In this document: piece by piece, positions 12,365 through 37,849 of the stretch
Layout: the number at the start of each line of letters is the position of its first letter
Numbering within the stretch: position 1 is the stretch's first letter
DNA from: Chitinophaga pinensis
Lineage (GTDB): Bacteria; Bacteroidota; Bacteroidia; NS11-12g; UBA955
Direction: 5' to 3'
Assembly: GCA_945871905.1 (NCBI GenBank)
Contig: CAMBXL010000007.1
Span: 1 to 64,000, forward strand
Length of the DNA stretch: 64,000 bases
Program-made: the position numbers and the translations under genes
The notes under the pieces: generated by a model
What the model saw: only the letters and a program-made list of their open reading frames with translations
The model's database searches: none
What the model was told of the DNA's origin: nothing

Positions 12365-12643
12365 CTTCCTTTGAGGTAACCCAAAAAAATCTAAACCCTC
12401 AAAAACCACCGCATTGAATGGCACGTTGGAAACCCAAGAAAGATTTTTGATTTGTGGTTTTAGATTTTTATCATGGTGAGGCTATCGAACTATAGACAAA
12501 AAAGCTTTAATAAAACACACTCTCTTGCGGCTGTGTTCCGAAGCCTCGGAACAGCCAATGCGTGAAAATTCTCTTTTGGGGATAGGCAGCCTAGCCTGCA
12601 GCCACAAAAACAGAATTTTTGATTGGGTGGTGGTTTTTGTGCC

Positions 12644-12667
12644 GTTGTTGGTGTTATCACCAACAAC
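12644..12667. repeat. Intergenic inverted repeat (hairpin)
   Basis: GTTGTTGGTG-ttat-CACCAACAAC, 10-bp perfect arms. Confidence 0.65.
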
Positions 12668-12709
12668 CAATTTTTCAGCAATAAAACAATTCAACAATTA
12701 ATCAATGAA

Positions 12710-35232: not shown

Positions 35233-36837
35233 ATGAATAATCAAGACATCATATCACATGTTATCGATAAAGCTTCCAAAGCTTATTTGAATTTATCAAC
35301 AGACGAACTTGTTAAAGTAGCCTTAGAGAAAAAAGAAGGGATTTTAACTGACAAAGGCGCATTGGCTGCAGATACTGGTGAGTTTACAGGAAGATCTCCT
35401 AAAGATAAATTTACGGTTTGTGATGCCAAAACTGAAAACACAGTTTGGTGGGGACCAGTTAATACTAAATTTGATGAAGCTAAGTTTGATGCATTGTTGA
35501 ACAAAGTATTAACTCATTTTGAAGGAAAAGAACTGTTTGTTAGAGATGCATATGCTTGTGCTAACCCTTCATACAGATTAAACATTAAAGTGGTAACGGA
35601 ATCTGCGTATCAGAATTTATTTGCAAAGAATTTGTTCTTACGTCCACAAAACGAAGCGCAAGAAACAGAATGGATTATTTTAGCAGCCCCTTCTTTCAGG
35701 GCTAATCCTGATGAAGATGGAACCCGTCAACACAATTTTTCTATCATCAATTTTACCAAAAAAATCATTTTAATAGGTGGTTCAGGTTATACCGGCGAAA
35801 TAAAAAAAGGAATTTTTACAGTATTGAATTTTATTTTACCTCAAGAAAGAGGGGTATTGTCAATGCATTGTTCTGCAAACATAGGAAAAGAGGGTGATAC
35901 TGCTGTATTCTTTGGATTGTCTGGAACAGGTAAAACAACCTTAAGCGCTGACCCTGAAAGAAAATTAATAGGGGATGATGAACACGGTTGGGACAGTGAA
36001 ACTGTCTTTAATTTCGAAGGTGGATGCTATGCTAAGTGTATCGATTTGACCGAAGAGAAAGAACCACAAATATGGAACGCCATTAAACACGGTGCTTTGG
36101 TTGAAAACGTTAGATTTTTCCCAAATACCAATACACCAAATTATGAAGATGTATCGATAACAGAAAATACGCGTGTTGCATACCCTATTGAACATATTGA
36201 AGGAATAGCAGTGCCATCTATCGGCAATGCACCTAAAAATATTTTCTTTTTAACCTGCGATGCTTACGGTGTATTACCTCCAATTTCTAAATTAACTGCT
36301 GAACAAGCAATGTATCATTTTATTTCAGGTTATACGAGCAAAGTGGCTGGTACAGAAGCTGGAATTACTGAACCGCAAAGTACATTCTCTGCGTGTTTTG
36401 GTCAAGCTTTCTTGCCATTACACCCAACCAAGTATGCTGATTTATTAGGTAAAAAACTAAATGATAATAAAGATGTAAAAGTTTGGTTATTAAACACCGG
36501 ATGGAGTGGAGGAGGTTATGGCGTAGGAAGTAGAATGAAACTTTCATTAACCCGTGCCATGCTTACTGCGGCATTAAATGGTGAATTAGACCAAGTTGAA
36601 TTTGTTCAACATCCTGTTTTTGGTGTGCAAATGCCAACAGCTTGTCCTAATGTACCAAGTGAAATATTGAACCCAAGAAATACTTGGTCAGACAAAGCAG
36701 AATACGACAAAGCTGCCAATGCTTTAGCAGACAAGTTTAACGACAATTTCAAAAAATTTGAAGAAGGAGCCTCTGAGGCTATTTTAAGTGCAGCACCTAA
36801 AGCGGTGATGACCAATATTTTAAAAATAATTTTCTAA
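35233..36837 (+). CDS. pckA: Phosphoenolpyruvate carboxykinase (ATP)
   Basis: GLSGTGKTTLSADPERKLIGDDEHGW, FTGRSPKDKF, TGWSGGGYGVGSRMKLSLTRAML. Confidence 0.96.
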   Translation: MNNQDIISHVIDKASKAYLNLSTDELVKVALEKKEGILTDKGALAADTGEFTGRSPKDKFTVCDAKTENTVWWGPVNTKFDEAKFDALLNKVLTHFEGKELFVRDAYACANPSYRLNIKVVTESAYQNLFAKNLFLRPQNEAQETEWIILAAPSFRANPDEDGTRQHNFSIINFTKKIILIGGSGYTGEIKKGIFTVLNFILPQERGVLSMHCSANIGKEGDTAVFFGLSGTGKTTLSADPERKLIGDDEHGWDSETVFNFEGGCYAKCIDLTEEKEPQIWNAIKHGALVENVRFFPNTNTPNYEDVSITENTRVAYPIEHIEGIAVPSIGNAPKNIFFLTCDAYGVLPPISKLTAEQAMYHFISGYTSKVAGTEAGITEPQSTFSACFGQAFLPLHPTKYADLLGKKLNDNKDVKVWLLNTGWSGGGYGVGSRMKLSLTRAMLTAALNGELDQVEFVQHPVFGVQMPTACPNVPSEILNPRNTWSDKAEYDKAANALADKFNDNFKKFEEGASEAILSAAPKAVMTNILKIIF

Positions 36838-36840
36838 TAC

Positions 36841-36874
36841 AAAAGCCATTCGTATAAAACGGATGGCTTTTTTT
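36841..36874 (+). terminator. Rho-independent terminator after pckA
   Basis: AAAAGCCATtCGT..ACGgATGGCTTTTTTT hairpin with T tract. Confidence 0.8.
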
Positions 36875-36881
36875 ATGAATT

Positions 36882-36930
36882 CCCTGTGGTTGGTCTGAAG
36901 TTTAGCTCTTAGTGGAAGCGGCCACCCAAT
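36882..36930 (-). repeat. Putative REP hairpin copy C (minus orientation) downstream of the RAYT gene
   Basis: Reverse complement attgggtggccgcttccactaagagctaaacttcagaccaaccacaggg matches copies A and B. Confidence 0.7.
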
Positions 36931-36948
36931 GCAGCCTTTTCAAGGACT

Positions 36949-37470
36949 TTAAATTTCTCCATATCTATTCAAAAATTTAAAATCCTGAATCCCGTTTTTA
37001 TAAAATTTAGCTGAACTAAAAAAATATTCATCATTAAATTTACTCAGTTTCCAATGTTCTTGAATAGGATTATTATGTATATATTCAAGCTTTTGTCTAA
37101 GAATTAATTCGTTTTCTATCAAAATCCACTTTGGTCTACGCTCCCAAATTTGAAAATTTCTATCATTTTGTGTTGAAGTTAACTTTAATAACATTTCAGC
37201 ATTATTTTCTTTTTTTAAATTAAATAAAATTTGTTGTGCTGTGTGTTTTAAGAAATCTCTTTGAAACGCAATTTTATTTTTCTTTTCTAAAGACAATACA
37301 ATGTGAATGTGATTGGGCATTAAAACAAAACCATAGATTTTTATCCATTTATTTATTGTAATAAAATTAAAGCTTTCAATAATTATCTGACAATTTTCTT
37401 TATTCAAAATCTTTTGCCAAGAATTTATTGTCGATGTAAAAAACCATAGATTTTCAATTTTCTGGAACAT
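36949..37470 (-). CDS. REP-associated tyrosine transposase (RAYT; Y1/IS200-like HUH transposase)
   Basis: 173 aa; HUH motif FVLMPNHIHIVLSL; candidate catalytic Tyr in KLEYIHNNPIQEHW; flanked by REP-like hairpins. Confidence 0.87.
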   Translation of the reverse strand: MFQKIENLWFFTSTINSWQKILNKENCQIIIESFNFITINKWIKIYGFVLMPNHIHIVLSLEKKNKIAFQRDFLKHTAQQILFNLKKENNAEMLLKLTSTQNDRNFQIWERRPKWILIENELILRQKLEYIHNNPIQEHWKLSKFNDEYFFSSAKFYKNGIQDFKFLNRYGEI

Positions 37471-37560
37471 TAATACAATAATATGACATTCTTTTGTAGA
37501 TGAAAAAAATAGTGGTTGGTCGCTACCTCAAGGAGCTTGGCTTCAGTCCAACCACAGGGG
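37452..37560 (+). repeat. 109-bp direct repeat copy 1: RAYT 5' end, upstream region and REP hairpin A
   Basis: Repeats at 37571-37679 (119-bp period); hairpin arms gtggttgg / ccaaccac. Confidence 0.9.
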
Positions 37561-37570
37561 AAAGAAATCA

Positions 37571-37679
37571 TTTCAATTTTCTGGAACATTAATACAATAA
37601 TATGACATTCTTTTGTAGATGAAAAAAATAGTGGGTGGTCGCTTCCTCAAGGAGCTCGGCTTCAGACCAACCACAGGGG
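37571..37679 (+). repeat. 109-bp direct repeat copy 2: duplicated RAYT start region and REP hairpin B
   Basis: Identical to copy 1 except 4 substitutions, all inside the hairpin part. Confidence 0.9.
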
Positions 37680-37849
37680 GAATTTGTTTATCCCGAGACC
37701 AATAACGGCAAACTAAATAATGCTTGAAAATAGGAAATTTAAATTTCACTCTAAAACAATTATAAAAAAGGAATGTTATCTAACAGTTGATTGTGTTTTA
37801 TAAATTTTAACTACAGAAAGTCATTCATTCGTTTGAATGGCTTTCTTTT

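Follow-up and report, generated by a model that had tools for sequence, protein, structure and literature searches.

A probable REPtron in a Bacteroidota genome: an apparently intact RAYT gene with low-copy REP-like hairpins

Experiments on REP-associated tyrosine transposases (RAYTs) have mostly been proteobacterial. In E. coli, TnpA-REP (PDB 4er8; subclass 2.2) and REP form a REPtron, an HUH-Tyr gene amid cognate palindromes that in their canonical form have a 5' GTAG foot and that are dispersed intergenically in more than 100 copies, as inverted BIME/REPIN pairs. TIRtrons, with their TIRYTs, combine a RAYT-like gene with long terminal inverted repeats from moderately abundant families, and flanking repeats that overlap the ends of RAYT genes have already been noted (Di Nocera et al., 2013; PMC3733652; in the part of that paper drawn on here). 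Closest to the present locus is TnpA-Y1 subclass 2.6, which occurs mostly in the Bacteroidetes. In the sections of Quentin et al. (2018; PMC6006769) used here, it is flanked by "atypical secondary structures" also present elsewhere in the genome, and it is defined by the motifs NH[LIV]H, YIH[QN]NP and WQ (the last being a MEME consensus and no strict criterion), by an SS in the C-terminal extension and by a length of about 179 aa.

The locus described here lies within a 64,000-nt stretch of contig CAMBXL010000007.1, referred to as the window. Its features are the following:

35233 to 36837, plus strand: pckA (PEP carboxykinase), neighbour of the RAYT locus
36841 to 36871, plus strand: intrinsic-terminator-like inverted repeat of pckA with a T run, adjoining the REP-like hairpin and separate from it
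36886 to 36929, minus strand: REP-like hairpin downstream of RAYT, in the orientation opposite to that of the two upstream copies (inverted-repeat pairs; covariance model R1, 67.0 bits, E = 4.8e-14, this copy having itself been in the set from which R1 was built)
36949 to 37470, minus strand: RAYT/TnpA-Y1 (HUH single-Tyr) gene, 173 aa (NCBIfam NF047646 match, invariant residues)
37452 to 37563, plus strand: proximal unit of a tandem direct repeat, with RAYT codons 1 to 6, the 5' region and a hairpin (repeat search)
37512 to 37555, plus strand: proximal REP-like hairpin upstream of RAYT, with stem arms of 10 nt and a loop of 24 nt (BLAST, covariance model)
37571 to 37682, plus strand: distal unit of the same repeat, in which the RAYT start recurs out of frame (repeat search)
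37631 to 37674, plus strand: distal REP-like hairpin upstream of RAYT (BLAST, covariance model)

We consider it probable, at roughly 85%, that this locus is a REPtron, consisting of a RAYT (TnpA-Y1, fitting subclass 2.6, or RAYT group 5) and its cognate low-copy REP-like hairpins. Subclass 2.6 is said to correspond to what Bertels et al. (2017) called RAYT group 5. As the preliminary description had it, the RAYT ORF stands between one minus and two plus hairpins and carries PNHIH and a candidate catalytic Tyr (Y130) in YIHNNP. Judged by its sequence, this is a small and apparently intact ssDNA transposase gene, present in one copy in its own genome: the frame contains no stop codon, the motifs PNHIH, IWERRP, YIHNNP and a C-terminal FFSSA are in place, and the enzyme appears intact because the HUH histidines (H54 and H56), W109, Y130, N134, P135 and S152 are invariant in an alignment with 15 homologues of 36-49% identity. 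The match to NF047646 (REP-associated tyrosine transposase; E = 1.7e-17, 129 of 146 positions) scores 63.7 bits, below the curated cut-off of 80 bits. A Pfam search with the protein gave no match, a PDB sequence search returned 4er8 alone at a non-significant E = 0.21, and a single-sequence AlphaFold model (pLDDT 37) was discarded. A second Y1 transposase of the same genome (L019, G000 C6:80578-81012) has GTAGGGGCAGAAAATATTCTGCC-type hairpins close by and a counterpart in G001 C16.

The motifs PNHIH, YIHNNP and FFSSA and the length of 173 aa agree with those given for subclass 2.6 in the sections of Quentin et al. (2018) cited above, and the window hairpins are likewise atypical, being weakly structured, present elsewhere in the genome and lacking a GT[AG]G foot, with GTGG inside the stem. 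The phylum also agrees, the nearest named relatives of the neighbouring pckA being Bacteroidetes records (74% and 71% identical). The RAYT differs from the subclass in having WE (IWERRP) rather than WQ, as do most of its close homologues, with WE or WK; WQ occurs only in L031 and L034. The assignment is thus one of fit by motifs, not of placement in a tree with reference members, and since motifs, length, C-terminal SS, phylum and hairpins all fit, the locus would belong to an already known RAYT/REP type. An initial remark that such elements are little characterised in Bacteroidota therefore needs qualification, a Bacteroidetes subclass having already been defined, and is otherwise partly right. 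The low-copy, head-to-tail and gene-edge-carrying layout detailed below was not seen described in the portions of Quentin et al. (2018) and Di Nocera et al. (2013) drawn on here.

The hairpin is not confined to the RAYT locus. Within the window its core matches twice, with 0.00 matches expected from shuffles, and across the 2.5-Mb genome BLAST with one unit and covariance models R1 and R2 found 10 copies at five loci (three at RAYT, three on contig C2, two on C14 and one each on C1 and C6). All 10 lie outside predicted genes, several of them between convergent genes, and the family thus passes the genome-wide check proposed in the preliminary description. The form they have in common runs GTGG(G/T)TGGTC, then a loop of ~24 nt whose 3' side has a conserved CTTCAGA, and then CCAACCACAGG, the fifth stem pair setting G opposite A in 7/10 copies; the GTGG/CCAC thus sits in the stem, in contrast to the 5' GTAG foot of canonical E. 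coli REPs. When single copies were folded as ssDNA, the plus copies were moderately better than shuffles (z about -1.7) and the minus copy no better (z +0.67).

The dispersed copies stand alone (C6), alone or in a degenerate direct pair (C1), or head to tail, as three on C2 (spacings of 127 and 154 nt) and two on C14 (64 nt). The second, degenerate hairpin on C1 (L012, about 2072-2119) was seen by local alignment only (0-2/1000 shuffles), the covariance model giving 3.8 bits (E = 5.1); C1 and C7 may share an ancestral tandem. The BIME/REPIN layout suggested at first is unsupported because the dispersed copies are single or head to tail, and the sole inverted arrangement of this family spans the RAYT gene itself. 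Besides the NCBIfam score below its cut-off and the weak folding of single copies, two observations count against a REPtron: the number of copies is low, 10 as against more than 100 for typical REPs, and covariation within the family is weak, two pairs being changed on both sides. Separately, a second and unrelated hairpin family, (GCC)GTTGTTGGTGTTATCACCAACAAC, is found in the same genome (window 12643-12668; G000 C3:197057/197098, C5:8318/8363 and C11:55879; L212, L213, L214), with two inverted pairs about 41-45 nt apart in a REPIN-like layout; no cognate RAYT was found for it in this genome, and in G009 its core is found flanking a RAYT.

Because covariation within the family is weak, the case for the hairpin rests on RAYT homologues, whose arms differ in sequence yet remain paired. 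A scan of the genome contigs with the window RAYT yielded no relatives, and the homologues come from another search in which 26 of 100 genomes gave RAYT matches. Both flanks were available for 15 close homologues, counting the window RAYT; in 12 of these the upstream and downstream flanks share an inverted repeat that scores more than 29, the level below which 99% of shuffles fall, so most carry inverted hairpins of their own on both sides. The arms are wholly different by locus (GTTGGTG/CACCAAC, GTCGGTG/CACCGAC, GTTCGTG/CACGAAC, GTTGTTGG/CCAACAAC), with pairing kept. In G025 the core of the cognate hairpin gave 17 matches with at most one mismatch and its reversed control none; as this core is palindromic, a site may have been counted on each strand, provided that it matches in reverse too. 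At two homologous loci (L026, L029), RAYT is bracketed by direct repeats that are about 115-160 nt long and contain a hairpin each, and recombination between them would therefore delete the gene and leave a hairpin.

The duplication of the upstream region together with the first six RAYT codons, at a period of 119 nt, was also borne out, the direct repeat measuring 112 nt (37452-37563 and 37571-37682) at 96% identity. Its distal unit contains an ATG and six RAYT codons that lie 119 nt away and off the RAYT frame, with a stop after 39 codons. The downstream hairpin forms inverted pairs with both units (36882-36928 with 37632-37678 at 85%, and with 37513-37559 at 79%). The preliminary description placed all four differences between the units in the hairpin; this holds for the first 109 nt, where 37516, 37525, 37538 and 37547 each fall inside the 45-nt hairpin (P = 0.027 by chance), but a fifth difference, at 37561, lies at the repeat edge. 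Contig C1 of the same genome, which has no RAYT there, carries a 129-nt stretch, 80% identical, in which a hairpin accompanies the region 5' of RAYT and some ten of the RAYT codons. Compared with the window, its spacer differs at 15/74 and 12/60 positions (20%) and its hairpin at 10/45 and 8/45 (18-22%). With so few differences in the window, and with spacer and hairpin diverging equally at C1, the proposal that divergence or exchange is confined to the hairpin is weak and not supported. The duplicated RAYT start itself is a recurrent feature, since units carrying a transposase edge are found not only at the RAYT-less C1 but also at L034, where tandem units reach 18 nt into the RAYT 3' end, at L025, where they reach 8 nt into RAYT, and at L026, where 86 nt of the RAYT 3' end is copied upstream.

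Comparison with related genomes, aimed at empty sites, produced one. The gap between dnaJ and pepT holds three hairpins in about 420 bp, whereas in G001, which is the closest relative and has a pckA 88% identical, the aligned flanks stand some 50 bp apart with no hairpin; this is the one clean empty site, and some other sites are rearranged. Elsewhere G001 carries some ten diverged members of the hairpin family, including one that follows pckA at a distance of about 430 bp, and no RAYT of the window clade was found in it, including at that pckA copy, which counts against a REPtron; either the gene was lost or it sits in an assembly gap. A decayed RAYT between two hairpins on G001 C10 was searched for and not found, and in the other 15 genomes of the genus covariance models found the hairpin family absent or very weak. 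Two other genes of G001 are recorded here: a Y1 transposase ORF with several in-frame GAGACGCCATGCATGGCGTCTC palindromes inside its coding sequence (L171, C20:98565-99125), which resemble REP insertions within subclass 2.4 genes, and a Y1 transposase-like gene (L169, C10:13504-13974) with what looks like a Cas2 gene on one side and the beginning of a Cas9-like gene (MKKTILGLDLGTNSIGWALIEI) on the other, both neighbours being named by eye.

We propose that the RAYT probably spreads these hairpin repeats around the genome, on a model drawn from E. coli TnpA-REP and IS200/IS605 (in the part of PMC6006769 used here). The HUH nuclease would bind the hairpin where the DNA is single-stranded, as at a replication fork, and Tyr130 would cut beside the hairpin foot; rejoining of the cut hairpin elsewhere would copy units into intergenic sites. 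Units would also multiply head to tail, at target sites as well as at the RAYT locus itself, and the copied stretch could start inside the RAYT gene edge, which would account both for the duplicated RAYT start seen in the window and for the piece of a RAYT start at C1. An extension of this model, in which the RAYT locus of the clade is a nursery where the enzyme amplifies head to tail the units that start in the coding edge and exports them with that edge, as at C1, with REP families arising anew from the REPtron time after time and not spreading as REPIN pairs, is in our opinion doubtful.

The head-to-tail multiplication may be the work of the enzyme or plain replication slippage at the hairpin. 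Hairpins stall replication, and the chances are about even that the tandem of hairpin and RAYT start arose by ordinary slippage, or by unequal crossover favoured by the hairpin, with the RAYT uninvolved: near-identical units in direct repeats of 63-185 bp are what slippage typically leaves, and tandems also occur on C2 and C14, away from any RAYT. Such a process leaves unexplained the dispersal over five loci, the empty site and the cognate hairpins of the homologues. It is compatible with a REPtron, and the tandems alone may be its share.

Two other explanations concern the locus as a whole. A single HUH-Tyr gene bracketed by inverted hairpins, with homologues that are patchy among relatives, could be read as an autonomous IS200/IS605-type insertion sequence with the hairpins as its ends. 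We regard this as quite improbable, given that several full-length copies of transposase plus ends would be expected where this genome has one gene copy, that the hairpins disperse without the gene, and that the protein matches the RAYT model, if below its curated cut-off, and has YIHNNP, not the IS200 Y---Q motif (motifs as in the part of PMC6006769 used here). The inverted flanking repeats also recall TIRtrons, from which the window repeats differ in being hairpins with a 24-nt loop. That the hairpins belong to the host, as terminators or RNA structures, and lie near RAYT by chance would suit the intergenic position of every copy, several between convergent genes, and their retention in G001 without a RAYT; it is nevertheless highly improbable, because separate terminator-like hairpins with T runs already adjoin the REP hairpins at C7, C1 and C14, the REP hairpins themselves have no T tract, and homologous RAYTs have different hairpins of their own.

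In summary, this probable REPtron provides a tractable low-copy system in the Bacteroidota, with an apparently intact enzyme, ten defined hairpin copies, one empty site and orphan hairpins in a sister species. It would permit tests of how REPs move, of why RAYTs are kept and of whether the enzyme also makes tandems.
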